Position numbers and translations under genes: made by a program. From positions 62,001 to 126,000 of the forward strand of contig CANFHA010000016.1 of assembly GCA_947446645.1 (NCBI GenBank): DNA of 64,000 nt, written 5' to 3'. Source of the stretch: Chitinophagaceae bacterium (lineage in GTDB: Bacteria > Bacteroidota > Bacteroidia > Chitinophagales > Chitinophagaceae). The notes under the pieces are model-generated. The model did not search any database, had not been told where the DNA came from, and worked only from the letters and a program-made list of their open reading frames with translations. Shown piece after piece: positions 12,026 to 61,373 of the stretch. Numbering within the stretch: the stretch's first letter is position 1; every line of letters begins with the position of its first letter.

Positions 12026-12048
12026 CTTTTATAATTTTGATCTGTTAT

Positions 12049-17485: not shown

Positions 17486-20269
17486 ATGAAACAACTGGTT
17501 ATCCTATTTATCCTGTTCTGCTGCGCCCGGCAGGGCCTCGGACAAACATATACACTGAAAGGAAGTGTAAAAGACACACTGAACGGCGTGCCGCTTCCAT
17601 TATCATCTGTAGTGCTTATCAGCGCTAAAGACTCAAACATTGTTGCATATACCCGTGCAGACTCTGCCGGCAACTTTATGCTTGCGGCTGATAAGGAAGG
17701 CAAGTATTTGCTGCGCATTACCTTTCCCAGCTTTGCCGACTACGTGGATAAGGTGAACCTGAACAAAACTGTAACCGATGTAGGCATGGTGCCTATGGTA
17801 TCAAAGGAGCACCTGTTAAAGGAATTTGTTCTGACAAAACAGATATCTGCAATTAAAATAAAGGGCGACACTACGGAGTACGTAGCAGACAGCTTTAAGG
17901 TGAAAACAGGTGCTAATGTGGAAGACCTGCTGAAACGGCTGCCGGGTATAGAAGTAGATAAGAATGGTCAGATAACTGCACAGGGGGAAACCGTGCAAAA
18001 AATACTGGTGGATGGTGAGGAGTTTTTCTCTGATGACCCCAAGGTAGTGACAAAGGGGCTGCAGGCAAACGTGGTGGACAAGGTGCAGGTATATGATAAG
18101 AAAAGCGACCAGGCTGAATTTACCGGCGTAGATGACGGGCAAAAGACCAAGACGATAAACCTGAAGCTGAAGGAGGATAAAAAGAAAGGATTTTTCGGGA
18201 AGCTGGATGCCGGCGGCGGAACGGATAACTATTACCAGGAGCAGGGGATGCTCAATGCTTTTAAAGGCAAACGCCAGGTAGCCGCTTTTGGTATTTTATC
18301 TAATACGGACAAAGTGGGACTGGGGTGGCAGGACAATGGGAAATTTGGCGCAGGTAATGAAATGATAAGTGATGAAGACGGCAACACTTATTTTATGAAT
18401 AACACGGACGATGGCTTCAATAACTGGGACGGCAGGTATAATGGAGAGGGCCTGCCCAAAGTAGGTACCGGCGGCGTACACTTTGCCGACAAGTGGCACG
18501 AAGATAAAAACCATGTAACCGCTAACTACCGCTATGGGCAGCAACAGGTAGATATAGACGGCACCACCACCACACAGTATGCGCTGGCGGGTGATAGCAG
18601 CAATGTGAACCTGATGCACAAAACACAGCACAGCCGTGGTGAGCGCCACGGGCTGGATGGTATGTATGAGCTGAAGATAGACAGTAACAATACAATAAAG
18701 CTAACGGCATCGGCAGGAACGAAAACCAGCGAAGTGAAGTCCGATTTCAATACCCTCACTTATCTGCATACCCTTGCCGGCGATGATACCCTGTATACCA
18801 ATCAACGTACTGCAACGAACAAGACAACTGCGAACTACGTAAATGCTGAGCTGCTGTATAAAAAGAAGTTCGCGAAAAAGGGCAGGACGTTGTCGATAGA
18901 TCTGAAGGAAAACTACAACCAGTCGCTAAGTGATGGACATTTGTTTTCGATAATAGTGCCGGATACGGCAAATGCTGTGAACTCAGTAATAGACCAGAAA
19001 AAGACGAATAACACCAATACCCTGGCGCTGTTTGGCAAAGCCACATATACAGAGCCACTCTCAAAGGTGCTGAGCCTGGAGATACACTACAGCGGACTGC
19101 TGAACAATGCAACCTCGCAAAACTATTCTTACAACAATACCGGCGGAGCCTATGATGTGCGCGATGATAACTATAGCAGTAATTACCAGTATAATATCTT
19201 CACCCAGGTAGGCGGGCTTTATTTTAGATGGGTGTATAAAAAGCTGAATTTCTCTGTGGGTAGCAATGTGTCGTACACAAACTATATGCAGACGGACAAA
19301 CTAACCACCGATACTACCTTTAACCGCAACTATTTTAATATAGCGCCGAAAGCAGTATTTAATTATAAGATCAGCAACCAGCGCTCCGTTAACTTTAACT
19401 ATAGCGGTAAAACACAACAACCTACGCTTAGCGAGATACAGCCGCTACGGCAGAATACCGACCCTACCAATATAACGATAGGTAATCCACAACTACGGCA
19501 GGAATTCATTCATTCGCTGTTTGCATCGTTCAATGATTATAAGATCCTCAGCCACCGCTCATTTTATGCCAATGTAAATGCCACGTTTGTAAATGATGAT
19601 ATCAGTACATCTACCTACACTAAGAATGGTATTAATACTACGCAGTTTGTAAATGTAAACGGTGATTATAATGCACATTCCTGGATCAGCTATAATTTTA
19701 AGCTAAAGAAGCCGGAACTTGGTTTAGGTCTCCATTTGTCACCGGGCTTCAGCCATTCTAATAATTTTATTAACGGGCAAAAAAACTCGAATAATAATAA
19801 CTCTTACGAGATAGGGCCGCATGCCAGCATGTATAAAGAGGACAAGTATGAATTCTGGTTCTCTCCCACAATAACCTACTACGATAACAAAGCCACCATA
19901 AGCACCTACAGTACAAACTACTGGCTCAGTAATACCGAGTTCAACGGCTCGGTGCAACTGCCGAAGAAGTTTGAAATAGGTACTGAGTTAAACCTCATGT
20001 TCCGTCAGCAATCTGCTTTGTTTCCCACTAATAACAATGTGATAAAATGGAACGCCTGGGTGAGCAAAAAATTTGGTAAGAAAAAAGAGCTGGAAGCACG
20101 GATATCAGTATACGATATACTGAACCAGAACCTGGGATATGACCGCAGTGCGAATGCAAGCATAGTAACCCAGAGCAGCTATAACACTATACGGCGGTAT
20201 GGCATGCTAAACATTATCTGGAACTTTACCCATCAGCCCGGCGGCGCAGCCACAACGGAGGAGGAGTAA
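17486..20269 (+). CDS. TonB-dependent-receptor-like outer membrane beta-barrel protein, copy 1
   Basis: A 927-residue protein. A signal peptide (about 1-20, G-L-G-Q) is followed by a CarboxypepD_reg-like/CNA-B-like domain (about 22-100). A plug-like domain has V-E-D-L-L-K-R-L-P-G-I and the Q-K-I-L-V-D-G-E-E-F-F-S-D-D-P segment (about 145-190). The remainder is a C-terminal barrel of the OMP_b-brl_3 type, ending N-I-I-W-N-F. These proteins import large substrates or act with surface partners; the substrate is unknown here. A GLPGLI-family gene lies 82 bp downstream. A paralogous receptor/GLPGLI pair is present in the opposite orientation at 27457-31088. Confidence 0.88.
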   Translation: MKQLVILFILFCCARQGLGQTYTLKGSVKDTLNGVPLPLSSVVLISAKDSNIVAYTRADSAGNFMLAADKEGKYLLRITFPSFADYVDKVNLNKTVTDVGMVPMVSKEHLLKEFVLTKQISAIKIKGDTTEYVADSFKVKTGANVEDLLKRLPGIEVDKNGQITAQGETVQKILVDGEEFFSDDPKVVTKGLQANVVDKVQVYDKKSDQAEFTGVDDGQKTKTINLKLKEDKKKGFFGKLDAGGGTDNYYQEQGMLNAFKGKRQVAAFGILSNTDKVGLGWQDNGKFGAGNEMISDEDGNTYFMNNTDDGFNNWDGRYNGEGLPKVGTGGVHFADKWHEDKNHVTANYRYGQQQVDIDGTTTTQYALAGDSSNVNLMHKTQHSRGERHGLDGMYELKIDSNNTIKLTASAGTKTSEVKSDFNTLTYLHTLAGDDTLYTNQRTATNKTTANYVNAELLYKKKFAKKGRTLSIDLKENYNQSLSDGHLFSIIVPDTANAVNSVIDQKKTNNTNTLALFGKATYTEPLSKVLSLEIHYSGLLNNATSQNYSYNNTGGAYDVRDDNYSSNYQYNIFTQVGGLYFRWVYKKLNFSVGSNVSYTNYMQTDKLTTDTTFNRNYFNIAPKAVFNYKISNQRSVNFNYSGKTQQPTLSEIQPLRQNTDPTNITIGNPQLRQEFIHSLFASFNDYKILSHRSFYANVNATFVNDDISTSTYTKNGINTTQFVNVNGDYNAHSWISYNFKLKKPELGLGLHLSPGFSHSNNFINGQKNSNNNNSYEIGPHASMYKEDKYEFWFSPTITYYDNKATISTYSTNYWLSNTEFNGSVQLPKKFEIGTELNLMFRQQSALFPTNNNVIKWNAWVSKKFGKKKELEARISVYDILNQNLGYDRSANASIVTQSSYNTIRRYGMLNIIWNFTHQPGGAATTEEE

Positions 20270-20283
20270 TTGTTGATTGGTTG

Positions 20284-20310
20284 TCCTTCGGCTTCGCTCA
20301 GGATGACATT
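20284..20310. repeat. Dispersed-type imperfect palindrome
   Basis: GTCCTTCGGCTTCGCTCAGG followed by ATGAC lies between receptor and GLPGLI gene. This sequence type, with TCCT/AGGA arms, is familiar as a dispersed repeat in many unrelated bacterial genomes. No function is assigned. Confidence 0.5.
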
Positions 20311-20351
20311 TGTTGATTAGTAAAAAGTCAGGGAAACGAAAATCGCAACTT

Positions 20352-21107
20352 ATGAAACAGTATTTTTTTATAACGCTCATTCTGTTTTGCGCTGGTCACG
20401 GTGCCAAAGCCCAGTATACAACGGCAGGCAAAATAGAGTACGAACGCAAGATGAATGTGTTTGCACAAATAGCAGACTGGCATGATGAAGATGAAAATGA
20501 AAGTGAGTGGATCACGAACTACAAGGCAACAAACCCGCAGTTCAGGAATTACTTTTTCGATCTGTATTTCAACAGCAATAAGAGTATATACAAGCCCGGG
20601 CAGGAAGTAGAGGCCAATAATAAATGGGCGTTGGGAGAAGGACCGGCGAAGGAGAACATAGTGCTAACTGATTTTAAAACCGGGCAGGTGAAAGCCGTAA
20701 AACTTGTCTATGAGCAAAAATTCTTTGTGCAGGACAGCCTGCGCAAAATAAGCTGGAAAGAAAAGGATGAGCTGCGCACTATAATGAATTATAAATGCCA
20801 TAAAGCTGTAGGAAAGATATGTGATTCCGTGTATGTAGTCGCCTTCTATACAGAAGATTTACCTACCAGTGGCGGACCGGAAATGTTTGGCGGCTTGCCG
20901 GGTATGATATTGGAGCTGGCCATACCCCGCTTGCATACTACCTGGACGGCAACAAAGGTGGAACTTATAACTCCTAAGGAAGCGGACTTTGCGATAAGCG
21001 AGAAGGGGAAAAAAGTAAACGAAAAGGAACTTTACCAAACAATACAGAGCAGCTTGAAAGATTGGGGCAAGTGGGCCACCAAAAATATATGGTGGACAGT
21101 GCTGTAA
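20352..21107 (+). CDS. GLPGLI family secreted protein, copy 1
   Basis: The start chosen is the ATG at 20352 (251 residues), which opens directly onto a signal peptide (M-K-Q-Y-F-F-I-T-L, cleavage near A-K-A-Q). Mature landmarks are the opening G-K-I-E-Y-E-R and the naming motif G-G-L-P-G-M-I-L-E-L near residue 180, preceded by Y-T-E-D-L and S-G-G-P-E-M-F. GLPGLI proteins are a Bacteroidota family of unknown function, frequently next to barrel receptors. It is strongly similar throughout to the protein at 27457-28209, with conserved ends N-I-W-W-x-V-L. Probably periplasmic or surface partner of the upstream receptor. Confidence 0.88.
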   Translation: MKQYFFITLILFCAGHGAKAQYTTAGKIEYERKMNVFAQIADWHDEDENESEWITNYKATNPQFRNYFFDLYFNSNKSIYKPGQEVEANNKWALGEGPAKENIVLTDFKTGQVKAVKLVYEQKFFVQDSLRKISWKEKDELRTIMNYKCHKAVGKICDSVYVVAFYTEDLPTSGGPEMFGGLPGMILELAIPRLHTTWTATKVELITPKEADFAISEKGKKVNEKELYQTIQSSLKDWGKWATKNIWWTVL

Positions 21108-21112
21108 TTTTT

Positions 21113-21802
21113 TTATAAATCTCTGAACTCTCCGCACCCGATCATCCTTTTATAAGATACGCTGTCTATCCGCCTGGTTTCAATGTTACCCGTTGGTAAC
21201 ACATTGCTTATAAAGTTTACAGAGTCTATTCTTGCCGGCGACGATGTGGTATCATCAGATACGAAGATATGTAACACATATGAGTGTATATCTTTGCCGT
21301 GTATTACTGCCTGTTTCTCCGGGCAATACTCCATTATTTTACCGTCGTCTGATGCTGGGCCGGCACATTCGCCGCCGTGCAACAGATAGTGTGCTACAGG
21401 GTGAAATGAGCTGTCAAGCAATACATACTGAATAGCACTATAGTCATCTGCATTGATCAACAGGATAATAGGGGTAAAACTGCCGATTGCGTCCTGCTTC
21501 GAGATAAAATGTGCGTCGGCATAACGAACATAAGATGTATCAAAAAAATCAATGCCCGGCAGCAGCACTTGTTTTTGCGCTTCAGTCAGCTTTGTAAACC
21601 GGGTTTTCATTGTAGAATCAAGATACGCATTACCCAGGCTGTCGAAGTGCAGGTTTTTTAGCATTGCTGTACCATCTAAATTCTTTAGCGCAAACAGGTT
21701 GTCACCAAGTGTCAATTTTTCCCTTTTGTTATGGTGAGTGCAGCTAGCCAGCACCATGGCGATGAGCACAATACACGCATTCAGCTTTAGCCATCTAGCC
21801 AT
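21113..21802 (-). CDS. Hypothetical lipoprotein
   Basis: A 229-residue protein with a signal peptide and lipobox V-L-A-S-C near residue 21, so a predicted lipoprotein. No recognised domain. It has H-G-G-E-C-A-G-P-A-S-D-D-G-K (about 142-155) and a Cys pair (C at about 146 and 160) that could be functional, and ends G-C-G-E-F-R-D-L. The start codon overlaps the end of the upstream FAD-reductase gene by 8 bp, so they are translationally coupled. It converges on the GLPGLI gene with a 5-bp gap. Confidence 0.65.
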   Translation of the reverse strand: MARWLKLNACIVLIAMVLASCTHHNKREKLTLGDNLFALKNLDGTAMLKNLHFDSLGNAYLDSTMKTRFTKLTEAQKQVLLPGIDFFDTSYVRYADAHFISKQDAIGSFTPIILLINADDYSAIQYVLLDSSFHPVAHYLLHGGECAGPASDDGKIMEYCPEKQAVIHGKDIHSYVLHIFVSDDTTSSPARIDSVNFISNVLPTGNIETRRIDSVSYKRMIGCGEFRDL

Positions 21803-22511
21803 ATATCTCTATGTGAATATCCTTTTTATCGTAGCCCATTTTCAGTATCCGTTCCTTTGCCTCATCTACCATGGGTTTCCAGCCACAGAGCATGAATAGT
21901 GAAGGCTGAACTTCCACCGCCAGCTTTTCATAGATGGCATGTACGTAGCCGGTATCGCCCTCCCATTCTTCACGGGAGAGAGTGGGGTGATAAGTGAATT
22001 GTGGCATGATGCGCTCCAGGTCTTTCATTTCCTCATGATATAGCAGATCCTGCTGTGTACGAGTGCCGAAGAGCAGGTGCAGCTGCCTGTGTGGCACCTG
22101 GTGGAAGTTGATATAGCGAAGCATGCTGCGAAACGGAGCAATACCCGTGCCGGTGCAGATCATGTATATATCCTTTTCGATCTGGGGTGGAAGCACAAAA
22201 ACGCCTTGCGGGCCGCGTAGTGAAAATGTGCTGCCCACCTGGATATCATTGAAAAGATAGCTGGAAGCAAGGCCGCCATCTACGTGCACAATAACCAGCT
22301 CTATGATATTGCTGCCGTCAGGCATAGAAGCTATGCTATAGCTGCGCCACCTGCGATTGCGTTGCTCGTGTATGGGCAGGTCCAGCGTTACAAACTGGCC
22401 GGCTTTGAAATCAAAAGGGTTTGCATCCGGCAGCTCTACCCAATAGCGGCGTGTATTTGGTGTCGCCTGCTCTATTTGTTTTACTATGCCGGTTTGCCAC
22501 TGAGGTAACAT
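21795..22511 (-). CDS. FAD-dependent ferredoxin/flavodoxin-NADP reductase-type oxidoreductase
   Basis: A 238-residue protein of the ferredoxin-NADP reductase fold. The FAD-binding R-S-Y-S-I-A-S (about 56-62) and the NAD(P)-binding I-C-T-G-T-G-I-A-P-F (about 118-127) are present, followed by L-L-F-G-T-R. The C-terminal half has L-C-G-W-K-P-M-V-D-E-A (about 208-218). It lacks a fused 2Fe-2S domain. It transfers electrons between NAD(P)H and a partner protein not in this window. It is upstream of the lipoprotein gene, overlapping it by 8 bp. Confidence 0.85.
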   Translation of the reverse strand: MLPQWQTGIVKQIEQATPNTRRYWVELPDANPFDFKAGQFVTLDLPIHEQRNRRWRSYSIASMPDGSNIIELVIVHVDGGLASSYLFNDIQVGSTFSLRGPQGVFVLPPQIEKDIYMICTGTGIAPFRSMLRYINFHQVPHRQLHLLFGTRTQQDLLYHEEMKDLERIMPQFTYHPTLSREEWEGDTGYVHAIYEKLAVEVQPSLFMLCGWKPMVDEAKERILKMGYDKKDIHIEIYG

Positions 22512-22570
22512 GGTATATTTTTTCTGAAAGGTACGGCTTTAGCCATAAAACATGGATGCCGTGTGCCCGG

Positions 22571-23473
22571 CTATATCTCATAGGCCGTGCCCTCTATACT
22601 CACAAACACATTCGGGAAGATGGCACTTGCCTCTTCGCGAAAAGGCTCCAGTTCCTTATACTTTGATGAGAAGTGGCCCAGCAGCAATTGTGTTGCATTG
22701 GCCAGCTTTGCTATCTGTGCCGCCTGTGCCGCTGTGCTGTGGTGGCGTGCTGTTGCTTTTTCGGCATCTTTTTCCAGGTAGGTACATTCGTGGTATATAG
22801 TATCTGCTCCCTGTATATAAGGCAGAAAGCTTTCAGTGAACACCGTATCCGCACAGTAGGCATAACGTTTTACTGATGGTCCGTCTTCGGTAACCCACTC
22901 ATTCTTAACGAGGAGGCCGTCTTTACGCTCATAATCCTCTCCTTTCTTCAGCTGCTCATAGTATGCTGCGGGTATCTCGTATTCCTGGCATTTGGCGGGC
23001 AGCAGTTTGCGGCCTCTTGTTTTGCGCTCTATAAGAAAGCCATGGCACTGTATACGATGCTCAACAGGGAAGCAGGTAACGCTGAAAGAAGGATCGTCTA
23101 CCAGCAGGGCAGCGCCTTCTGGCAGAGCGTGGAAGTAAAAGGGATATGATAAAATGGTATCTGCAACAGCAAGTATGGAATCAATAATAGGCTTGAGCTC
23201 TGCAGGCGCATAAAGGTGCAAGGGTGCTGTGCGGCCCAGCAGGCTCATGCTATTAATAAGGCCTGGTAAACCAAAGTAATGATCGCCATGCAGGTGACTG
23301 ATGAAAATATGATGTACACTGCGCCACCGCAGTCCGTATCGCTGCATCTGCACCTGGGTACCTTCGCCGCAGTCTATCAGCAACACCTCTCCGTATACAG
23401 ATACAGCTTGTGCGCTTGGGTGACGACCAAAGGCAGGTAGGGCAGAATTATTTCCTAGTATGGTTACATGCAT
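22571..23473 (-). CDS. rnz: Ribonuclease Z
   Basis: A 300-residue metallo-beta-lactamase-fold nuclease that processes the 3' end of tRNA precursors. The zinc motif is H60-L-H62-G-D64-H65 in I-S-H-L-H-G-D-H-Y-F-G-L-P-G, with C-A-D-T (about 208) and L-G-H-F-S (about 266-270) supplying later ligands. Length and motif set match RNase Z type short form (ElaC). The gene starts 3 bp after the STAS-domain gene, an operon arrangement. Confidence 0.93.
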   Translation of the reverse strand: MHVTILGNNSALPAFGRHPSAQAVSVYGEVLLIDCGEGTQVQMQRYGLRWRSVHHIFISHLHGDHYFGLPGLINSMSLLGRTAPLHLYAPAELKPIIDSILAVADTILSYPFYFHALPEGAALLVDDPSFSVTCFPVEHRIQCHGFLIERKTRGRKLLPAKCQEYEIPAAYYEQLKKGEDYERKDGLLVKNEWVTEDGPSVKRYAYCADTVFTESFLPYIQGADTIYHECTYLEKDAEKATARHHSTAAQAAQIAKLANATQLLLGHFSSKYKELEPFREEASAIFPNVFVSIEGTAYEI

Positions 23474-23476
23474 TTT

Positions 23477-23851
23477 CTATTCCTCATTAAATAAGTCTCT
23501 TTCCAAAATTTCCATACTGATAATATCAATTGCCTCTTGCATTCGCGGGGCAATATTAATTAGAAGGTCGGTCTCATCTGCTCTTAACGCAGCCATTACT
23601 TTTTCATTCACAGCGGTGAATACGAGTGACATTTCCTGGCCATAGCTGTCTTCATGCAGTTGCACCAGTTGTGCTATCGCGTCATTTTCTATTTCATTAC
23701 AGTACTGCAGGTCCACTATTATGTTTTTACTGCCGCTTTGCCTGATTTGGGTACACTTTTCCCCGAGTGCACCTGTCAAATTAGCACTTATTTTGTCTGC
23801 AAAAGGCATAATGGTGGTAAAAGTATCTTTGGTATCAATTTTGAATTCCAT
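23477..23851 (-). CDS. STAS-domain protein lacking the usual phosphorylatable serine
   Basis: A 124-residue single STAS domain, like anti-sigma-factor antagonists. The conserved D-L-x-x-V-x-x-x-D-S-S-G region aligns to D47-L-Q-Y-C-N-E-I-E-N56-D57-A here, so Asn and Asp replace the Ser/Ser pair that kinases such as SpoIIAB phosphorylate in the family. It is thus either constitutively active or a binding module without phospho-control. It is co-transcribed with rnz (3 bp). No partner kinase or anti-sigma factor lies nearby. Confidence 0.75.
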   Translation of the reverse strand: MEFKIDTKDTFTTIMPFADKISANLTGALGEKCTQIRQSGSKNIIVDLQYCNEIENDAIAQLVQLHEDSYGQEMSLVFTAVNEKVMAALRADETDLLINIAPRMQEAIDIISMEILERDLFNEE

Positions 23852-24064
23852 TATCTACGGTATTTAAATATCCCCGGGAAAATTTGTGAGTAAGTTGAAA
23901 AATAGGACTGCCGAACGATACTTCCTTCGTATATTACAATACATTAAAAGCGGAAGAGCTGTTAAGTAGCCACAGCTAAAAATAGCAATACTTCTATAAT
24001 TAATGCCTATACCGGGAATACTTTTGAAATCGTTAACTTTATTTCTTAAAAACAGGATTTGTAC

Positions 24065-26617
24065 ATGGATTCAAATTTCTCGCCGAAAGTAAAAGAGATC
24101 ATTTCCTACAGCCGGGAGGAGGCTTTAAGGCTGGGCAATGACTTTATAGGCACCGAGCATTTATTACTAGGTCTCATTCGCGAAGGCGATGGGATGGCCC
24201 TGAAAGTGCTGCAAAGCATGCAGGTAGACCTGTTTGAGCTGCGTAAAGAGCTGGAACTGGCTATAAAAGATAAGAACAATAAACCACTCGCCAACATCAA
24301 CAGCCTGCCCCTTACCAAGCAGGCGGAGAAGGTAATCCGCATTACCGTGCTTGAGGCGAAATCGCTGAAAAGCACAACAGTGGAGACAGAGCACCTGATG
24401 CTGTCTATACTGAAGAATAAGGAAAATGTGGCTACACAGATCCTTAACCATTACGAAATTGACTACGAACGTTTTAAGGGTGAGCTGAGCATACTGCAGG
24501 GCGGTCACCCAACAAGCGACTATAACGATCCGGGATCTGAAGAGTTTGAAGAAGATGACGAGCGTCGCCAGTTTCAGCAGCAGCGCAAGCCTGCCAGCGG
24601 TAACGCCAAGTCAAAAACTCCGGTGCTGGATAACTTCGGCCGCGACATTACAAAGTTCGCAGAGCAAGGATCGCTTGACCCCATAGTAGGCCGCGATGAA
24701 GAAATAGAGCGCGTATCGCAGATATTATCTCGTCGTAAAAAGAACAACCCTATACTTATAGGTGAGCCGGGTGTGGGTAAGACCGCCATCGTAGAAGGTC
24801 TTGCACTCCGCATAGTTCAGCGCAAAGTATCGCGTGTATTGTTTGATAAGCGTGTTATCAGTCTCGATCTTGCAGCGCTTGTTGCCGGTACTAAATACCG
24901 CGGCCAGTTTGAAGAACGCATGAAGGCAATCATGAACGAGCTGGAAAAGAATCGTGACGTAATTCTGTTCATAGATGAGATACATACCATCGTAGGAGCT
25001 GGTGGTGCATCTGGCTCACTGGATGCTTCCAATATATTCAAACCTGCACTCGCCCGCGGCGACCTGCAGTGCATAGGCGCATCTACGCTGGACGAGTACC
25101 GTATGTACATAGAAAAAGATGGTGCACTTGACCGTCGTTTCCAGAAGGTACTTGTAGAACCACCAAGCGTGGATGAGACCATCATTATACTTAACAACAT
25201 TAAGTCGAAATACGAAGATTTCCACAACGTATCATACGATGCAGAATCGATTGAAGCATGTGTGAAGCTGAGCGACCGCTATATGACTGACCGCCTGCTG
25301 CCGGATAAGGCGATAGACGTGATGGACGAAGCGGGAGCGCGTGTGCACCTTAAGAACATAAATGTGCCTGAAAATATCCTGGAGCTTGAAAAGAAGATCG
25401 AGGATATAAAGCAGGAGAAGAACAAGGTGGTAAAGAGCCAGCGCTTTGAGGAAGCAGCTGCGCTTAGAGACCGTGAAAAGAGATTGGGTGAAGAACTGGA
25501 CCGTGCTAAGGCGGAATGGGAAGAAGAGGCTAAGCATAAGCGCTACCCGATCACCGAAGAGTCGATAGCAGAGGTTATAAGCATGATGACGGGTATACCT
25601 GTGATGCGTATGGTGGAAGCAGAAAGCGCAAAGCTGCGCCGTATGGATGACGACCTGCGTGGAACAGTGGTAGGCCAGGATGATGCGATAAACAAAATTG
25701 TAAAAGCAATTCAGCGTAACCGTGTAGGTCTTAAAGATCCGCGCAAGCCAATAGGGTCGTTCATATTCCTGGGACCGACTGGTGTAGGTAAAACTGAGCT
25801 TGCCCGCTCTCTCGCACGCTATATGTTTGACAGCGATGATGCGCTGATACGTATAGACATGAGCGAATACATGGAGAAATTCTCGCTCAGCCGCCTTATA
25901 GGTGCGCCTCCGGGATACGTAGGATACGAAGAAGGCGGTCAGTTGACGGAGAAAGTGCGCCGTAAGCCATACTCTGTGGTGCTGCTTGATGAGATAGAGA
26001 AAGCGCACCCGGATATCTTCAACATACTGCTCCAGGTGCTTGATGACGGACAGCTTACCGATGGTCTTGGCCGTAAGGTGGACTTTAAGAATACGCTGAT
26101 CATCATGACCTCTAACATTGGCGCAAGGCAGCTGAAAGATTTTGGTGCAGGCGTAGGTTTTGCAACCAATGCAAAAACGGAAAATCTGGAGGAGAACAAC
26201 CGTGGTGTGATAGAAAAGGCACTGAAGCGTACCTTCTCTCCTGAGTTCCTGAACCGTATAGATGATGTAGTGATCTTCAATTCGCTTGAAGAGAAGCACA
26301 TAGGAATGATCATTGACATCATTATGAAGGATGTAATGAAGCGCCTGAATACGCTTGGCTTCACAATGACGATTACTGAGCCTGCTAAAAAGTTCATTGC
26401 AGAGAAAGGATACGACCAGCAGTTTGGTGCGCGCCCATTGCACCGCGCCATACAGAAATACCTGGAAGATCCGTTGGCTGAAGAAATACTGAACCACCGT
26501 ATTAAAGCCGGCGACAATGTAGCGGCCGACTTTAATGAAGCAGATAGCAAGATCGTATTTACCATTGGCCTGCCTGCCGAAAAGAAGGAAGAAGAGGAAA
26601 CGAAGAAAGCTGAGTAG
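24065..26617 (+). CDS. clpC: ATP-dependent Clp protease ATP-binding subunit ClpC
   Basis: An 850-residue AAA+ unfoldase from the ATG at 24065; a TTG two codons upstream is less likely. Domains in order: twin ClpN repeats (about 1-145), AAA-1 with Walker A G-E-P-G-V-G-K-T (about 235) and D-E-I-H, a UVR-type coiled segment (about 430-470), AAA-2 with G-P-T-G-V-G-K-T-E (about 570), and a ClpB D2-small domain. The I-G-F-type P-loop for ClpP docking is not obvious. It feeds damaged proteins to ClpP in the cytosol. A strong terminator follows. Confidence 0.96.
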
Positions 26618-26635
26618 TGAAAATTAGTTGGTTAT

Positions 26636-26675
26636 AAAAAGCGAACGGCCTCAGAGATGGGGCCGTTCGCTTTTT
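26636..26675 (+). terminator. Rho-independent terminator of clpC
   Basis: AAAAAGCGAACGGCC and GGCCGTTCGCTTTTT form a perfect 15-bp stem with a 10-nt loop. It lies 18 bp after the stop codon and is one of the strongest in the window. Confidence 0.92.
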
Positions 26676-26686
26676 GTGATAACAGG

Positions 26687-27448
26687 ATGTTTTTGGTTCA
26701 TCTGCACCATAGATCCGGTGTGTTTTTTAAATTTCTATATTTGGGTACTTTTAAAACAGGTAAACTGGAACTTCCCACAACCGATACAGGCGCTAACAGG
26801 GGTATTAAATCAAGAAAGGCAACTCTATCCCTGATTGCCATTTGCTGTATTGCTTACCCCGCAGGATTCAGATATAGCTATCTGCAGTGCAGCTACGACA
26901 ATATTTTTTTGTCAGGCAATTGGTGGTCGGTATTCACAGCCTTGTTTTTGCATGGCAACCTTATGCACCTACTGGGGAATATGTTGTTCCTGCTGTTGTT
27001 TGGCCTGGGGCTGGAAAAAAAAGTAGGCCCCGGGCGGCTAATTGCAGTCTTTCTGCTCGGCGGGGCAATAAGCATGTTTTTAAGCTCGTTTTATTATCCG
27101 CATAACCAGCCGAGCGTAGGTGCGTCAGGGGCAATTGCTACTATATTGGCAGCACTCATGTTATTCAATCCGTGGAGGATATCATTTCTGCTGAATTTTT
27201 TCCCGATGCCTATAGGTGTGGCGGGTTTTACTTTTTTGTTGTTAAACATCGGCGGTCTCTATCGCGACTTTGCTCACCCTTCAGTAAGCAATTTTCATGT
27301 TGCATATATGGGCCACCTGATTGGCTTCCTGGTTGGTATTGTGTTTGCCTCGGTGGTCACGCCCGATTGGAAGAAGAACCTTGTGCTTAGCGTTATTCAG
27401 TTTATTGGCTTTTATGCGCTACTGCTGCTGATCTTCCACTATCTATAG
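26687..27448 (+). CDS. Rhomboid family intramembrane serine protease
   Basis: At most 253 residues from the ATG at 26687; an ATG at 26657 lies inside the clpC terminator and is rejected. A TATATTTG box near 26734 suggests that the real start could be even further downstream, at a TTG or other codon. Six predicted membrane segments. The catalytic Ser is in V-G-A-S-G-A (about 151) and the His is in Y-M-G-H-L-I-G-F (about 217). The loop H-G-N-L-M-H-L-L-G-N-M (about 93-103) is typical. The rhomboid cleaves membrane protein segments in the lipid bilayer. Substrate unknown. It converges on a GLPGLI gene with an 8-bp gap. Confidence 0.85.
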   Translation: MFLVHLHHRSGVFFKFLYLGTFKTGKLELPTTDTGANRGIKSRKATLSLIAICCIAYPAGFRYSYLQCSYDNIFLSGNWWSVFTALFLHGNLMHLLGNMLFLLLFGLGLEKKVGPGRLIAVFLLGGAISMFLSSFYYPHNQPSVGASGAIATILAALMLFNPWRISFLLNFFPMPIGVAGFTFLLLNIGGLYRDFAHPSVSNFHVAYMGHLIGFLVGIVFASVVTPDWKKNLVLSVIQFIGFYALLLLIFHYL

Positions 27449-27456
27449 CATGGCAA

Positions 27457-28209
27457 TTATAGTACCGACCACCAGATATTCCTTGGCGCCATTTTGCCCC
27501 AGCTTTTGAAGCTTTCCTGCAGGCCATCATAGAGCTCTTTTTCGCTAACTTTTTTTCCTTTGTCAGGTATAGTGAAGTCTGTCTCTTTGGGTTGCACCAG
27601 CTCCACCTTATCGGCCGTCCATGTGCAGTGGAGCCTCGGTATTGCCAGTTCCAGTATCATGCCCGGCAGGCCGCCAAACATCTCGGGGCCGCCACTTACC
27701 GCAATATCTTCTGTGTAGAATGCAACCACGTAAACCGTATCGCACATGCGGCCCACTGCCTTGTGGCACTTAAAGTTAGCTATGGTACGTATCTCATCTT
27801 TCACTTGCCACTCCATAACACGTACCGTGTCTTCCACAAAAAACTTCTGGTCAAACACCTTTTTGTTCGCCTTTATTTTGTTTGCGCCGAAATCAGTTAA
27901 AACGATATTTTCTGTAGCGGGTCCGCCGCCAAACATTTTGAAAACATTGCCCTCTACTTCCTTGCCGGGCTTGTAGATGCTGCGAGAAGAGTCGAATACA
28001 AGTTCAAAAAATGAGCTGTTGAACTTCGGTATGCGCGACTTCATTTGTTCCATCATAGGGTTAGCGCCCTGCTCTTCCTCCATTTCCTTCAATTGTGCAT
28101 GGATATTCGTCCGTCGCTCAAACTCTATCTTACCAGCCATAGTATACTGGGCGTTTGCTCCGGCAACGGAGTAAAGCAAAATGGCGGTTATAAAAAATAC
28201 CTGTTTCAT
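27457..28209 (-). CDS. GLPGLI family secreted protein, copy 2
   Basis: A 250-residue protein with a signal peptide (M-K-Q-V-F-F-I-T-A, cleavage near A-N-A-Q). It is closely related to the GLPGLI protein at 20352-21107: shared blocks are S-I-Y-K-P-G-x-E-V-E, E-N-I-V-L-T-D-F, C-H-K-A-V-G, V-Y-V-V-A-F-Y-T-E-D, S-G-G-P-E-M-F-G-G-L-P-G-M and the I-W-W-S-V-L end. The central part after residue 40 is M/E-rich, unlike copy 1. It lies 59 bp downstream of its own barrel-receptor gene. Function unknown, likely partner of that receptor. Confidence 0.88.
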   Translation of the reverse strand: MKQVFFITAILLYSVAGANAQYTMAGKIEFERRTNIHAQLKEMEEEQGANPMMEQMKSRIPKFNSSFFELVFDSSRSIYKPGKEVEGNVFKMFGGGPATENIVLTDFGANKIKANKKVFDQKFFVEDTVRVMEWQVKDEIRTIANFKCHKAVGRMCDTVYVVAFYTEDIAVSGGPEMFGGLPGMILELAIPRLHCTWTADKVELVQPKETDFTIPDKGKKVSEKELYDGLQESFKSWGKMAPRNIWWSVL

Positions 28210-28268
28210 AATCTATTTCTTTATACGCTTACTATTTAACTAATCAACTCATTAACCAATAAACCGGA

Positions 28269-31088
28269 TTACCTCCGCATCATCATCATGCCGCCTCCGT
28301 TTGGTGGTGGTGCACCTGCAGGGGTGTGAGAGAAATTCCAGATAAGGCTGAGCATACCATAACGGCGAATGGTATTATAGTTCTCTTCGGTAATAATGCC
28401 GGCCTGGCCACTTCGGCTATAGCCTACATTCTGATTGAAAATATCAAACACCGAAGCGCGGATCTCTATGTCGCTCTTCTTCCTGAGCTTCTTACCTATA
28501 TAGGCGTTGCAAAGCAGCACATTGTTTCCTTTGTAGAACAGCCTCGTTTCTTCTCTCAGAAACCAGTTTACTGTGGCACTTACTTCCAGTTTCCAGGGCA
28601 GCTGCACGGTAGCGGTAAGCTCGTTGTTGCTCGTCCAGTAGCTGGTGCTGTAGCTGGTTATCGTTGATTTGTTGTCGTTGTAACTAAAAGAGGGGTCGAA
28701 TTCGATGCTGAACTTCTTATCCTTAAAGTATTCTATCGTTGGTGTAAAGGAGTACGTGTTGTTATCACTTTTGTTGAGCGCGCTGTTTACATAACTGTTA
28801 ATATGGTTGATGCCCGAACTCAGGCGTGCACCCATCTGCAGGTCTATCTTTTTCAGTTTGAAGCCATAGCCAAGAAATGCAAAGGCGTTGTAGTTGCCAT
28901 TTACATTTACATATTGTGTGGTGCGGATACCACCTATGTTTGTTGTATTAGTGCTTATGGCATCGCCGATGACGTTAAAGCTCGCGCTTGCGAACAAATA
29001 CCGCTGTGACAATATTTTAAAGTTATTGAAGCGGATGCTGAATGCATTTGTAAACTGCTGCCGTAGGCCTGGGTTACCGACTGTTTGATTTGTAGGGTCT
29101 GTATTCTGGCACTGTGGCGACACTTCGTCAATGGTAGGCTGGGTGGTACTGCCGAGGTAGTTGAAACGGAAATTGGTTTCCCGGCCGACCCTGTACACAA
29201 ACGTAGCCTTAGGGAAATAATTCAGATAGGCATATTTACGCTCTGATCCCGGCCGGAGGGCATCGGACTGATCATAGAGCGCATTAGAGATATCACCACC
29301 CACAGAGAAGTTAATTTGTTTGAACACAAAACGGGCAGCGACACCACCCATATTGGTAAATATATTGTACTTGTAATCCGTGCTGTAAAAAGTGTTCCTG
29401 TTGTTAAAAACACCGGGCGCTGTGCTGTCATAAGAATTATTGGTGGAGTTACTGTTGTTTATGGTTACGCCATAGTCCAGCTCCAGGTAGGCCACTTTCG
29501 ATAATGGCTCAGTATATGTTGCCTTTGCATTAAATGCCAGTGTGCCTACGTCGCTGCTCTTGCGCTGGCTGGTATAAATGCTTGAGTCCGGCATGCCCGC
29601 GCTGGATGCATACACATCCGTTAGTGATCTGAGGTGACCATCGCTTTTCGAGTCTTTATAATTCTCTTTGACATCCACAGATAGCGTCCGTCCCTTCTTA
29701 GCAAATTTCTTTCTCAGCAGCAGGTCTGCATTTACAAAATCTGCTTTAGCATTGCTCGTCACCTTGCGGTCGTTAGTATTAGATAGTAAACTATCCTGCA
29801 GCAGTGTGGTGCTGTAGTAGTCGGTGGAGATATCGGTGTTTTTTTCGCCGGCAGTAGCAGTTACCTTAATCGATAACAAGGAGTCGATCTTCCATTCATA
29901 CATGCCATCCAGCCCGTGGCGGTCGCCCCTGCTGAATTGATTTTTATTCTGGCGTATTATGCTCTCCTGGTCATTGGGCAGCGGATTTTGTGTTACTGTC
30001 GTTCCCTCTATTTCTACGTTCTGCATGGCATAGCGGTAGTTGGCAGTTACGTGTTGCTTGTCCTCATTCCACTTATCAGCAAAGTGGAGGCCTCCGGTCC
30101 ACACCTTGGGCAGACCCTCTCCATTATACTTACCGTCCCATCCGGCTATGTCTTCGGCATTGTTGTTAGAGGTTATGGTTACCTGGCCTTCATCGGTGAT
30201 CTCCGTAACACCGCTTCCGCTGCTGAAGCTGTTGTTATCCTGCCAGCCGAGGCCTACCTTGTCGGTATTAGACATAATACCGAAAGCCGATAATTGCCTT
30301 TTGGCTTTAAATGCATTGATCATGCCCTGGTTCTGAAAGTAGCCATCCGTTCCGCCTCCCGCTTCCAGCTTACCAAAGTAGCCTTTCTTCTTATCCTCCT
30401 TTAACTCCAGGTTTATGGTTTTAGTTTTTTGTCCATCGTCTATCCCTGTAAATTCTGTCTGGTCGCTTTTCTTATCGTACACCTGCACTTTCTCTACTGC
30501 ATTGGCTTGTAAGCCCTTTGTTACCACCTTCGGGTCGTCGGAGAAAAACTCTTCACCATCTACAAGTACTTTTTGTACGGTCTCGCCTTGCGCGGTTATC
30601 TGCCCGTTTTTATCTACCTGTATACCCGGCAGTCTTTTTAATAGGTCTTCCACCGTAGCGCCTTTCTTCACCTTAAAGCTGTCGGCCATATACTCAGTAG
30701 TATCGCCCTTTATCTTTATGGCGGCTACCTGCTGCCTGAGCACAAACTCTTTTAGCAGGTGCTCCTTCGACACCATAGGTATAGTGCCATAGTCGGTCAC
30801 CTGTTTCTTCACATTCACCACATCTATATAATTGGCAAAGCTTGGGAAGGTAACCTGCAGTATATACTTACCCTGTGCAGGTGCTTTCAGCTCAAAGGTT
30901 CCATCCTGCCGGGTGCGGGTGAAGGTTTGTATTACCGAGTCGGTGGTGCGGATAAGGACCACAGAGGCGCGCGGCAACTGGGCCATGTTCAGCGTATCTG
31001 TTACTGATCCCTTTATGGTATAGCTCTGCGCTATGCTGCGCTGAAATGAGCATAAAAGGACAAGGCAACCAATAAAAAAGTACTTCAT
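28269..31088 (-). CDS. TonB-dependent-receptor-like outer membrane beta-barrel protein, copy 2
   Basis: Start chosen at the ATG at 31088 (939 residues), because it opens on a signal peptide (M-K-Y-F-F-I-G-C-L, cleavage at S-I-A-Q). An upstream start at 31148 would add 20 non-signal residues. Same domain order as copy 1: CarboxypepD_reg-like domain, plug-like part with L-P-G-I-Q-V-D-K-N-G-Q and V-L-V-D-G-E-E-F-F-S-D-D-P, then the barrel. Unlike copy 1 it ends in a Gly/Met/Pro-rich tail (P-P-N-G-G-G-M-M-M-M-R-R), so the last strand is not C-terminal. The GLPGLI gene follows at 59 bp. Confidence 0.88.
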   Translation of the reverse strand: MKYFFIGCLVLLCSFQRSIAQSYTIKGSVTDTLNMAQLPRASVVLIRTTDSVIQTFTRTRQDGTFELKAPAQGKYILQVTFPSFANYIDVVNVKKQVTDYGTIPMVSKEHLLKEFVLRQQVAAIKIKGDTTEYMADSFKVKKGATVEDLLKRLPGIQVDKNGQITAQGETVQKVLVDGEEFFSDDPKVVTKGLQANAVEKVQVYDKKSDQTEFTGIDDGQKTKTINLELKEDKKKGYFGKLEAGGGTDGYFQNQGMINAFKAKRQLSAFGIMSNTDKVGLGWQDNNSFSSGSGVTEITDEGQVTITSNNNAEDIAGWDGKYNGEGLPKVWTGGLHFADKWNEDKQHVTANYRYAMQNVEIEGTTVTQNPLPNDQESIIRQNKNQFSRGDRHGLDGMYEWKIDSLLSIKVTATAGEKNTDISTDYYSTTLLQDSLLSNTNDRKVTSNAKADFVNADLLLRKKFAKKGRTLSVDVKENYKDSKSDGHLRSLTDVYASSAGMPDSSIYTSQRKSSDVGTLAFNAKATYTEPLSKVAYLELDYGVTINNSNSTNNSYDSTAPGVFNNRNTFYSTDYKYNIFTNMGGVAARFVFKQINFSVGGDISNALYDQSDALRPGSERKYAYLNYFPKATFVYRVGRETNFRFNYLGSTTQPTIDEVSPQCQNTDPTNQTVGNPGLRQQFTNAFSIRFNNFKILSQRYLFASASFNVIGDAISTNTTNIGGIRTTQYVNVNGNYNAFAFLGYGFKLKKIDLQMGARLSSGINHINSYVNSALNKSDNNTYSFTPTIEYFKDKKFSIEFDPSFSYNDNKSTITSYSTSYWTSNNELTATVQLPWKLEVSATVNWFLREETRLFYKGNNVLLCNAYIGKKLRKKSDIEIRASVFDIFNQNVGYSRSGQAGIITEENYNTIRRYGMLSLIWNFSHTPAGAPPPNGGGMMMMRR

Positions 31089-31237: not shown

Positions 31238-34200
31238 CTATTTTGCCGGGGCCTGGCCCACCACAGCTTTATACACAGCAGGCCGGTTATGGTCTACCGG
31301 TATTCCTAATGCCTCATAAATGTAGTCCTGGGAAGTAGTGCGCACACCCAGTTTTGTGATCTTGGTATTGGCACCAGATGGGAATACACGGTTTGATAAA
31401 AACACAAACACGATGCCGGTAGCAGGATCGGCCCATGCGCAGGTGCCCGTGAAGCCTTGGTGCCCGAATGCCAGACCGCTGCAGCGCTCCCCAGCGGGCC
31501 CTGATTCATCGGCTTCAGGCAGCGGCTTATCAAAGCCAAGACCACGGTGGCTGATCTTGCTGTTGTAGGCGGTAAAAAGATCTACTGTAGCCGGCTTGAA
31601 GTACCGTTTAGTGCCGTATACTCCTTTATTCAGCAGCATCTGGAAAATAGCCGCAACATCGTGGGTCGATGCAAACAAGCCCGCATGGCCGCCTACACCA
31701 CCCAGCATAGCTGCCCCAGGGTCATGCACAAAGCCCCACAAGGTCTGGCTGCGGAAGGTGATCTCCACCTCTGAAGGTACTATCTGCAGCGAATCAAATT
31801 TCTTTAGCGGTAGATAAGTGATACGCTTCAGACCCATGGGCTTATAAAATTCTTCATCAGCGTATTTGTCTATTGTCTGGCCGGTTATTTGTTTTACCAC
31901 GGCCGCCAGGAAGAAATAATCGAGATCGCTATATAGCATTTTGCCGGCATTGTCCAGCGGGCTGGCATAGATCCTGCTCCACATGGTATCTATCCAGTCG
32001 GTACGCAGGTTTACATCTTTAGCTACCTGCACACCAAAGCCCGGTGTTGGTGTTTTGCGGTACAGGTCGCTTTTCAGTTTGCCATCACCGTCTACTGTTT
32101 CTTTATAGAACGGTATCCAGCCTTTTAGTCCGGCCTGGTGCAGCAGTATATCTTTTATCAGCAGGCCCGATTTATTGGTACCCCTTGCCTGTGGCAGGTA
32201 GTCACCCAGCGTTTTGTTCAGGTCCAGCTTGCCCTGCTCATAAAGCCGCATCACAGAAATGGTTGTTGCCAGTACCTTGGTGCACGAGGCCATATCGTAA
32301 AGCATATTGGTGTCTACAGCATGCATCTTGTCGTACCGGGTGTAGCCAAAAGCTTTATCGTAAAATACCTTTCCATTGTGCGCCGCCAGTACCCTGCAAC
32401 CGGGAAATACGCCATCAGCTATATTGCGCGCCATAAACATATCCAGCCTGTCCAGGGCTTTTTGCTCCACTACACCTGCATCCGTTGGGAAAAACACTTT
32501 CCTCAGTTCATTGGAAGCCTCCTTCAGCACCACGGGTGGTTTCACTGGCATAGGGCATATGCTCTGTCCGTTCATGCAGGCCGTTACGGGTAATTTTCCT
32601 TTAAACCGGGTCTTGCGCAGCAGCATATTGGCAACCGCATTTTCTGTAAGTGTATCATCTTCGTAAGCCACTACCACGGAGCCCGCGCCACAAAAGTACT
32701 GGGTGACATAGGCGTTGCCCATATCTACTACCAGCACATTGTTACGGCAGCCTGCCTGCTGCAGAAAAGCCACCGCCTCATCTCCAAGGCCGTAGTTACC
32801 ACCGGGCGCAAAACTGAGATTATGAATGGCAATAACTGTAACATCGTACTTGCTCATACCGTCCAGTATCTTCTGCACTGTATCAGCAGGACTACCTTTT
32901 GGCAACCACTCCGCTTTTACATTATCAAACTCATCGTCAAGGCGCTGGTAGAGTGGTGTTATTGCAGAAGCGTTTACGCCAATGTAGCCTATGCGCATGT
33001 TCTCGTTTATTTTTTTCAGCGCCTGATTATCGTCTCTTATTATGGTTATGGCTGCCCTGGCCACCTGGCTGCGCAGGGTGTCCACCATTTTGTTGAGGTC
33101 GGCCGTAATATTGGTAGTGTCAATTTCTTTCCACTCGTTCAGGCCGGCATTGTACTTTGCTGCAAGTATCTTTTTTACACTGGTTTCGAGCGCCGATTGC
33201 GGGATAATGCCCGTGTCTATAGCATGTTTTATTTTAGCCAGCGCTGCGGGCACATCCTGCGAAAACAACAGTACATCGTTGCCGGCTTCAAATGCCAGCA
33301 GGTCAGCATCGCCGGCGGGGAAGTATTTGGTAACACCTTGCATATTCAGCGCATCAGTAAAGATAAGCCCGGTAAAACCAAGCTTGTTTTTCAGCAGGCC
33401 GGTAACCGCGTTTTTAGAAAGCGTTGTAGGTACATGAGCAGTAGTATCCAGGGCCGGTACTTCCAGGTGGGCTACCATTACACTTTTCACGCCGGCCGCT
33501 ATCAGCTGTTTAAAAGGGTAGAGCTCTATACTGTCCAGCTGCTCTACAGTGCGTGTTACCACGGGTAGTTCTTTATGCGAGTCAGCGCTGGTATTTCCAT
33601 GCCCCGGAAAGTGCTTGGCGCAGGCCATAATACCGTTGCGCTGCAGGCCTTTCATAAAGGCAATACCCAGGTGCGACACCCACGCTTTATCCTCTCCAAA
33701 CGAGCGGGAGTTGATGACCGGGTTAGCCGGGTTATTATTCACATCTACATCTGGCGCAAAGTCTATATGCACACCCAGCCGCCTGCACTGCATAGCTATA
33801 GCACTTGCTACGCGAAAGACGATATCAGTATCACGAGTAGCGCCCAGCATCATTTGTCTGGGTAGGCTCTTTACACTATCCAGGCGCATACCCAGGCCCC
33901 ACTCGGCATCCATAGATAATAGCAAAGGTACATTTGCCAGGTGCTGATATTTGTTGGTAAGTATTGCCTGGCGCACAGGGCCGCCCTGCATGAAAATAAG
34001 GCCGCCCAGCTGGTGTGCATTTATCAGTTGTGTTACCAATTCCTCATTATAGTTCTTTCCACCCGAATAAGCTGCTATCATGAACAATTGTCCGATGCGC
34101 TCCTCTTGCGTCAGCTTATCATAAACGCTGTCTACCCAATGGTTGCGTGCGGCTATATTGATGGGTTTTAGCTTGCCGTTAGTTTGGCCATAGCTGAAAA

Positions 34201-34255
34201 CAGTAAAAAACAAAGAAACAAACACCAGCGAAATAGCGCAACGGAATAGCCTCAT
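31238..34255 (-). CDS. GH3 beta-N-acetylhexosaminidase fused to a serine-hydrolase (beta-lactamase-fold) domain
   Basis: Start chosen at the ATG at 34255 (1005 residues), in front of a signal peptide (about 1-23, F-S-Y-G-Q). Residues about 40-370 are a glycoside hydrolase family 3 domain. The NagZ signature K-H-F-P-G-H-G (214-220) with D-S-H (225-227) provides the acid/base loop, and the Asp nucleophile is D301 in F-T-D-A-L-N-M. Residues about 595-990 are a class C beta-lactamase-like hydrolase with S657-C-T-K660 (SxxK) and Y-S-D near 760. It probably removes GlcNAc and hydrolyses peptide or ester bonds in cell wall fragments in the periplasm. Such fusions are known in Bacteroidota. Confidence 0.88.
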   Translation of the reverse strand: MRLFRCAISLVFVSLFFTVFSYGQTNGKLKPINIAARNHWVDSVYDKLTQEERIGQLFMIAAYSGGKNYNEELVTQLINAHQLGGLIFMQGGPVRQAILTNKYQHLANVPLLLSMDAEWGLGMRLDSVKSLPRQMMLGATRDTDIVFRVASAIAMQCRRLGVHIDFAPDVDVNNNPANPVINSRSFGEDKAWVSHLGIAFMKGLQRNGIMACAKHFPGHGNTSADSHKELPVVTRTVEQLDSIELYPFKQLIAAGVKSVMVAHLEVPALDTTAHVPTTLSKNAVTGLLKNKLGFTGLIFTDALNMQGVTKYFPAGDADLLAFEAGNDVLLFSQDVPAALAKIKHAIDTGIIPQSALETSVKKILAAKYNAGLNEWKEIDTTNITADLNKMVDTLRSQVARAAITIIRDDNQALKKINENMRIGYIGVNASAITPLYQRLDDEFDNVKAEWLPKGSPADTVQKILDGMSKYDVTVIAIHNLSFAPGGNYGLGDEAVAFLQQAGCRNNVLVVDMGNAYVTQYFCGAGSVVVAYEDDTLTENAVANMLLRKTRFKGKLPVTACMNGQSICPMPVKPPVVLKEASNELRKVFFPTDAGVVEQKALDRLDMFMARNIADGVFPGCRVLAAHNGKVFYDKAFGYTRYDKMHAVDTNMLYDMASCTKVLATTISVMRLYEQGKLDLNKTLGDYLPQARGTNKSGLLIKDILLHQAGLKGWIPFYKETVDGDGKLKSDLYRKTPTPGFGVQVAKDVNLRTDWIDTMWSRIYASPLDNAGKMLYSDLDYFFLAAVVKQITGQTIDKYADEEFYKPMGLKRITYLPLKKFDSLQIVPSEVEITFRSQTLWGFVHDPGAAMLGGVGGHAGLFASTHDVAAIFQMLLNKGVYGTKRYFKPATVDLFTAYNSKISHRGLGFDKPLPEADESGPAGERCSGLAFGHQGFTGTCAWADPATGIVFVFLSNRVFPSGANTKITKLGVRTTSQDYIYEALGIPVDHNRPAVYKAVVGQAPAK

Positions 34256-34453
34256 TAAGCAAAAATAATTGACCACCTAAATATCGCTGATAATAGCAGT
34301 ATTTCAAATTTTCACTGCAATTATTAACAAGTGTAGTGACGACAACAAACAGGAGCGTGATTAAGAGAACTTTACAAACCAATACTTGAACTGCCGTGTT
34401 TGTCTTTCCACAGCTCATGTTTGCGGTCATAATTAACTATTCCACCAATCAAC

Positions 34454-60533: not shown

Positions 60534-61373
60534 CTACGAAGCCAGCGCCTGCTCCTGCTTGAAAGCCCGGCTGATAGCCGCATCTATTTTCTTTTGGTTG
60601 CTTTTAGACTGTTTTTTTTTGGTAACCAGGCTATACAGAACAATGGTGAAAGTAGCACCCTTGTTTATCCCATCGCTTTGGGCAATCAGCTTACCATCAT
60701 GCTTTTCTATCATCTTCCGGCTCAGGTACAGACCCAGGCCTATAGATGCCTCGCCATGAGTGCCCTTTTTTCCCGATTTTGTAAACCGGTCAAACAATCC
60801 CTCGATCTCCGACTGCATAAAGCCAATTCCTTCATCCTGTATAGACAGCGATACCTGGTCTTTATCTTGCGTGGCAGTAATGTGGATGCTTTTACCTTCT
60901 GACGAAAATTTGATGGCGTTTCCCATTATGTTCCTCACGGCTTGCACAAAAAGCTCGCGCTGCACCGTAATAACGATTGACTTATCTACAGATACACGCG
61001 CATGCAGATTTTTTTCCGTCAATGCAAAATCGAAGAAATGAACGGTCTCCTCTATCAGATCGCTCAGATTTACCGGGCTCATGGTAAATGGCCGGCTGTC
61101 CTCACGCAGCATCATCAATATATTTTCCAGCACGCTGAGCAGGCTGTTACATTCTTCAGTTATGTAGTCTGCGTAAATTTCCTTCTTGGTTTCGTCGTCT
61201 ATTCTTATGAGATTACTGATTCCCAGGATGCGGGTAATAGGCGCCCTCAGATCGTGCGAAAGCAGATCTATCATGTCATTTTTTTCGGCCAGCATCGAAT
61301 CCAGGCTTGCTATGGTATCCTGTATGTTGCCAAGTAATGTACGGGCGTCATCTATCATTGCATATAAACGCAC
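60534..61373 (-). CDS. Sensor-less histidine kinase
   Basis: A 279-residue cytosolic histidine kinase. A short coiled-coil (about 10-32) precedes the HisKA domain with H40 in L-L-S-H-D-L-R-A-P-I-T. The ATP-binding half has the N-box V-R-N-I-M-G-N-A-I-K-F-S (about 145-156), D-E-G-I-G-F (about 182-187) and G-L-G-L-Y-L-S-R (about 211-218). There is no membrane segment, PAS or other sensor domain, and no response regulator next to it. The C-terminal tail is K/Q-rich (K-K-K-Q-S-K-S-N-Q). Ligand unknown. It lies upstream of alaS, with the 55-bp dyad between. Confidence 0.88.
   Translation of the reverse strand: MRLYAMIDDARTLLGNIQDTIASLDSMLAEKNDMIDLLSHDLRAPITRILGISNLIRIDDETKKEIYADYITEECNSLLSVLENILMMLREDSRPFTMSPVNLSDLIEETVHFFDFALTEKNLHARVSVDKSIVITVQRELFVQAVRNIMGNAIKFSSEGKSIHITATQDKDQVSLSIQDEGIGFMQSEIEGLFDRFTKSGKKGTHGEASIGLGLYLSRKMIEKHDGKLIAQSDGINKGATFTIVLYSLVTKKKQSKSNQKKIDAAISRAFKQEQALAS

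Follow-up and report, generated by a model that had tools for sequence, protein, structure and literature searches.

Outer-membrane barrel proteins of family PF14905 and small proteins of the GLPGLI family form a real and widespread partnership in Bacteroidota; this conclusion is strongly supported by their gene linkage, and one family in our sample, f23, is the exception. The pair occurs twice in the stretch of DNA analysed here (the window), which covers 64,000 nucleotides of contig CANFHA010000016.1 (positions 62,001 to 126,000, forward strand) from the Chitinophagaceae bacterium assembly GCA_947446645.1. A preliminary description of the window had placed a barrel gene and a GLPGLI gene together at 17486-21107 (+) and again at 27457-31088 (-), and we found the open reading frames (ORFs), strands and coordinates to be as described. 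Two GLPGLI genes were detected in the 4.71-Mb genome assembly (98% complete), both of them inside these modules, which consist of the following genes.

17486..20269 (+): module 1 (type A) outer-membrane barrel, 927 amino acids, with a CarboxypepD_reg domain, the barrel and an acidic C-terminal tail (THQPGGAATTEEE)
20352..21107 (+): module 1 GLPGLI protein, 251 amino acids; TIGR01200 149.6 bits, PF09697 37.5 bits, PF22252 36.3 bits
27457..28209 (-): module 2 (type B) GLPGLI protein, 250 amino acids; TIGR01200 150.8 bits; AlphaFold2 predicted local distance difference test (pLDDT) score 82.9
28269..31088 (-): module 2 barrel, 939 amino acids; PF14905 97.3 bits; C-terminal tail ending in PPPNGGGMMMMRR

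Both barrels score above the gathering cut-off of PF14905 (27 bits) and carry a CarboxypepD_reg domain, and both partners exceed the curated cut-off of TIGR01200 (50 bits); the cut-off for PF22252 was 27.6 bits. The module 1 barrel reaches 120.8 bits with PF14905, also matches PF13620 and PF13715, and has a region that looks plug-like by eye. Gene order and spacing are conserved between the modules, as had been described, with gaps of 82 nt (module 1) and 59 nt (module 2) between barrel and GLPGLI gene and module lengths of 3622 and 3632 nt. Amino-acid identity is 57% for the barrels and 62% for the GLPGLI proteins, which bears out the paralogy claimed for both; it is far above chance.

We examined the linkage at three levels of relatedness. 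In the genus, a barrel lies directly upstream on the same strand for 47/47 GLPGLI genes above the cut-off, which come from 33 genomes; four of these genes (L041, L062, L071 and L072) were found by tblastn, and sub-threshold matches in G002 and G030 were excluded. Ten GLPGLI genes from other genera of the family and order have a barrel upstream (5), downstream (3) or not at all (2, both in G036). For the phylum, GLPGLI proteins were detected in 94 of 296 sampled genomes, 84 of which hold matches above the family cut-off. The loci studied there are the best-scoring part of the list, 80 sites from 55 genomes, so that weaker-scoring families are hardly covered; in 79 of these sites, profile hidden Markov models built from the genus and order sequences and iterated once found 83 GLPGLI clusters, with a barrel upstream in 21, downstream in 42 and absent in 20. 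Family f23 accounts for 16 of these 20 unpaired clusters (16 of its 17 lack a barrel), while elsewhere 62 of 66 clusters are paired. As a baseline, 29 of 484 other ORFs of at least 150 amino acids in the same loci have a same-strand barrel neighbour, a figure that is raised by the choice of loci. The preliminary description had proposed a conserved receptor-GLPGLI partnership, to be abandoned if the genes proved unlinked in relatives; outside f23, linkage is the rule and the proposal holds.

The order of the two genes is not fixed. Among 110 pairs, 68 have the barrel first and 42 the GLPGLI gene first, and order changed four times on the barrel tree, compared with about 34 times under shuffling; the count was repeated on another tree. 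The strongest sign that the two genes function together is that the pair survives such changes. Distances in the barrel and GLPGLI trees correlate at 0.96 (maximum of 0.20 in 1000 permutations), which alone is weaker evidence because both genes share the history of their species. Many GLPGLI genes in f23 loci (e.g. L143, L145-L148, L175, L179 and L183) stand alone, with no barrel next to them, and a locus from a family f30 genome (L149) has a single barrel beside eight neighbouring ORFs that match GLPGLI, including two short ones of 153 and 112 amino acids.

One copy of each partner was modelled with AlphaFold2. The model of the module 1 barrel (pLDDT 78.7) has TonB-dependent receptors as its top PDB matches, and that of the module 2 GLPGLI protein best matches the N-terminal domain of PNGase F-II, followed more weakly by VioE, LolA and MucB/RseB. 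With this N-terminal bowl-like (NBL) domain (PDB 4r4x, 4r4z and 7zgn; PF22252) they also share weak sequence similarity in the region of the GLPGLI motif. The two differ in that the domain is fused to a glycanase in PNGase F-II, whereas GLPGLI is a free protein beside a barrel, and a Cys that is invariant in our GLPGLI alignments A1 and A2 is Val in PNGF-II; among the wider GLPGLI proteins, 23 of 159 have no Cys after residue 22. The likeness to LolA and RseB is confined to the modelled fold: GLPGLI proteins gave no Pfam match to the LolA/LolB or RseB/MucB families at E values up to 10, in a search whose HMMER filters lose most matches above about 0.1. The partner proteins of the window are members of the GLPGLI family (TIGR01200/PF09697), whose models give no function; both score above its NCBIfam and Pfam thresholds. 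A literature search on the family models, OMP_b-brl_3 and a TonB/LolA-like pairing returned nothing; GLPGLI genes do appear in the expression tables of two reports, in the relevant parts of which no partner or role is stated (PMC9603813, PMC8757827). New for the family are the pairing with a barrel, backed by counts, and the fold prediction.

Receptor genes with a dedicated partner gene are familiar from the SusC/SusD pairs of Bacteroidota and from further receptor-lipoprotein pairs of the phylum. The GLPGLI partner differs from SusD in having no SusD family match and, by eye, no lipobox, and is therefore predicted to be periplasmic, unlike the lipid-anchored SusD of the cell surface. A partial precedent is the proteobacterial DUF1302/DUF1329 pair, also an outer-membrane barrel with a partner of the LolA superfamily, which in Pseudomonas putida is described, in the part of the report that concerns it, as essential for Tween 20 use and as a predicted complex (PMC10866462). 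It differs in that the modelled window barrel resembles TonB receptors, and we found no Pfam match to DUF1302 in the window barrels or to DUF1329 in the GLPGLI partners.

By analogy with that pair and on the basis of the models, we tentatively propose that receptor and periplasmic carrier work together on a hydrophobic ligand or a lipid-bearing peptide; we regard this as quite possible, though somewhat short of probable. The PF14905 barrel would be the TonB-receptor-like, outer-membrane half of the module. The GLPGLI protein, with its PNGase F-II N-terminal/LolA-like fold, would sit in the periplasm, bind its own barrel from the periplasmic side, and either take hydrophobic or lipidated cargo from the barrel or deliver cargo to it, a working logic like that of DUF1302/DUF1329. 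Two other roles were considered and set aside. A general route for surface lipoproteins is unlikely, as only 94 of the 296 genomes carry GLPGLI; F. johnsoniae (Flavobacterium) lacking any LolA/LolB still exposes its surface lipoproteins, according to the passage concerned in PMC11885536. Metal uptake, hinted at by the Met-rich tail of type B barrels and by OprC and ZnuD in the list of fold matches, found no further support.

The main alternative is that the GLPGLI protein acts as an RseB-like periplasmic sensor, which binds a lipid or peptide signal, perhaps delivered by the barrel, and alters an M56/BlaI pathway or a two-component kinase. Its fold matches include RseB and MucB. Of 79 phylum loci of about 12 kb, 15 hold a kinase with a response regulator, in most cases oriented divergently to the pair, and in 14 of these 15 the kinase is one or two genes from GLPGLI; an M56 peptidase with a BlaI-type repressor is present in 5 of the 79. 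No such kinase-regulator couple was found in 20 other regions (L092-L111), a rough control since all are from the genus and three (L105, L109 and L111) hold pair genes. In Riemerella anatipestifer, five GLPGLI genes with differential expression are reported to have PhoP-binding sites upstream (PMC9603813), a further point in favour of a sensor; work on the response regulator PG0720 of Porphyromonas gingivalis lists two GLPGLI genes among those changed (PMC8757827). However, regulators of this kind adjoin neither module of the window and are missing from most loci, a recognisably common sensor region of the kinases is confined to two families plus two weak matches, and regulators next to transporters often merely control their expression. 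Altogether we consider a sensor role unlikely, though it is the chief rival of the carrier proposal. Elsewhere in the window, a short histidine kinase (HisKA, HATPase_c) is encoded at 60534-61388 (-) and has a relative near the type B pair of G001. One locus, L066, contains a single ORF (11013-12509, -) that combines a BlaR1-like M56 peptidase with an N-acetylmuramoyl-L-alanine amidase domain. A type A pair and a BlaI-type repressor lie next to this ORF, whose cell-wall amidase-like domain may be the sensor. In four f23 loci (L169, L176, L180 and L182), GLPGLI genes were seen near M56/BlaI genes.

Linked pairing and congruent trees would also be expected if GLPGLI were a dedicated folding helper or a fixed structural subunit of its own barrel. 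A one-to-one subunit does not agree with the lone GLPGLI genes of f23 or with the GLPGLI genes that stand in tandem next to a single barrel, however, and related barrels occur without GLPGLI, which makes this explanation rather improbable. The genome of the window itself holds such a barrel, a third PF14905 protein (L263:7577-10492, -) that is 29% identical to barrel 1, has no GLPGLI neighbour and also ends in a G/M/P-rich tail.

Returning to the proposed receptor-carrier pair, we asked how the two paralogues differ. The G/M/P-rich tail noted earlier for receptor 2 is real; tails of its kind are conserved in the orthologues and mark type B across the genus. Leaving out one unreadable tail of each type, 14 of 16 type A tails have at least two acidic residues among their last six and none has two or more Met, while among 25 type B tails the final six positions contain at least three hydrophobic residues in 23 and at least two Met in 20. 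In the GLPGLI proteins, positions 42-45, 53, 55, 87-99, 115-117, 171, 234 and 240 separate A from B. Hence the claim that the paralogues differ is upheld across the genus; the M/E-rich insert ascribed to the GLPGLI protein of copy 2 is not, as this stretch aligns with copy 1 with one gap. Tail charge and partner charge are negatively correlated (Spearman -0.41 in the genus, n=43, p 0.007; -0.38 outside it, n=21, p 0.09), uncorrected for kinship, and the charge of the GLPGLI partner alone differs between A and B with p 0.057. These differences in tails and residues support different partners or cargo, yet they amount to one evolutionary split. Being old paralogues that differ both in their tails and in partner residues, the two modules probably serve different cargo.

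One can take the models further and picture an unrecognised class of outer-membrane machine for transport or sensing, with GLPGLI as its periplasmic half, in which each LolA-fold protein docks on its own TonB-receptor-like barrel and carries lipid-bearing cargo, the barrel tail of the genus (acidic in A; Met-rich and basic in B) being a docking tag that separates two parallel systems. We consider this doubtful and something of a long shot. The clean division of tails between A and B argues little for a docking tag because one split is one event; likewise, the match between tail presence and gene order is uninformative because tail presence changes once on the barrel tree. The third barrel, which has no GLPGLI neighbour, carries a G/M/P-rich tail too.

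The preliminary description had interpreted the two modules as an ancestral duplication in inverse orientation whose arms would allow the region between to be inverted by recombination. In a tree of 44 concatenated barrel and GLPGLI pairs, copy 1 (type A) joins the copies of G001 and G015 and then that of G014, whereas copy 2 (type B) joins those of G015, G001, G020, G004, G006 and G033. Forcing the window copies to be sisters costs 805 log-likelihood units (approximately unbiased test, p-AU 1e-118), and a duplication inside the focal lineage is also rejected (p-AU 3.6e-6), as is sisterhood of the tandem A and B copies of G028 (p-AU 0.0011). A single clade of all type A rows is not rejected (p-AU 0.448), yet is missing from the best tree. 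The copies thus group with different lineages, an outcome that the description itself had named as refuting and that speaks against a local inverted duplication. Because both sisterhood and a focal-lineage duplication are rejected, we infer that the duplication is older than many of the species in the genus.

The inverted paralogous arms, whose inverted DNA matches reach 638 nt at 77%, could suggest a recombining element that is invertible or the product of a recent duplication. The longest exact match between the modules is, however, 18 bp, third positions agree at nearly random levels (identity at fourfold-degenerate sites is 39% for the barrels and 30% for the GLPGLI genes), and the copies are not sisters. 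Recombinase matches were absent among the six intervening genes. The inverted layout is found in the focal genome only of the 14 genus genomes with both types; G028 has a direct tandem and the other 12 carry the pairs on different contigs. Recombinational inversion is therefore unsupported, and such an element is rejected on present data as highly improbable.

The genes between and beside the modules are as follows.

21113..21802 (-): small lipoprotein-like protein between the modules and not part of either; no family match above threshold
21795..23851 (-): FAD/NAD reductase (PF00175, PF00970), RNase Z-like and weakly STAS-like proteins, the conserved neighbours of the type A slot by synteny
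24059..26617 (+): ClpC-type ATPase with Clp_N, AAA_2 and UVR matches, a conserved neighbour by synteny
26657..27448 (+): rhomboid protease (PF01694 98.9 bits)
31238..34276 (-): GH3-like gene, conserved neighbour of the type B slot by synteny

The labels originally given to the intervening genes stand for the reductase, the Clp ATPase, the rhomboid protease and the rnz-like gene, whose product shows the metallo-beta-lactamase family matches that rnz would give. The STAS match is sub-threshold (19.1 bits against a cut-off of 22.6), and the lipoprotein has no significant family match; a relative of its gene lies at the same place in L062 and another beside the reductase gene in L102. No relatives of the rhomboid protease were found by tblastn (1e-10 and >60 bits) in the regions fetched from relatives (L032-L091). 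What we take, by eye rather than from profile scans, to be gcvP and a GH3-like gene served for synteny only.

The named relatives, which are metagenome assemblies, carry the labels Chitinophagaceae, Flavipsychrobacter, Taibaiella, Sphingobacteriales or simply Bacteroidetes and presumably come from freshwater bacteria. Of 33 genus genomes with a parsed pair, 14 have both types, A occurs alone in 4 and B alone in 15, although single-type genomes may be undercounts because some assemblies are incomplete. In the window, G001 and G015, the A pair has gcvP on one side and the reductase-rnz-STAS-clpC block on the other, apart from one or two additional genes; the B pair stays beside the GH3-like gene. 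One slot, bounded by the GH3-like and reductase genes, hosts single pairs, A in L050 and B in L032, L035, L036, L038 and L045; 20 further fetched pairs (10 A, 10 B) have neither flanking gene of this slot. Since A or B alone occupies one and the same slot, an ancestral direct tandem followed by loss of either copy would explain the single pairs best. The inverted placement is then probably a relic of the former tandem, broken by a later chance rearrangement and without function. A single simple inversion of the intervening block would not suffice: in G001, G015, G004 and G020, another conserved gene follows clpC, separated from it by one small ORF in G020, and a different contig carries the type B pair, so that at least one further rearrangement is needed. 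For the same reason, the contact of clpC and the rhomboid gene with the B pair appears to have arisen by rearrangement in the focal lineage. An assembly error behind the layout is unlikely; P0121 and P0212, two proteins of the window, are each recorded on four contigs, the longest of 437,390 bases.

For the GLPGLI family, the pairing with a barrel is likely the best clue to its role, and the linked partner together with the predicted fold turn a protein of unknown function into a testable receptor-carrier hypothesis. Through the predicted fold, the N-terminal domain of PNGase F-II, so far unexplained, gains a family as well; if the docking machine outlined above were to exist, this NBL domain would be a borrowed docking domain.
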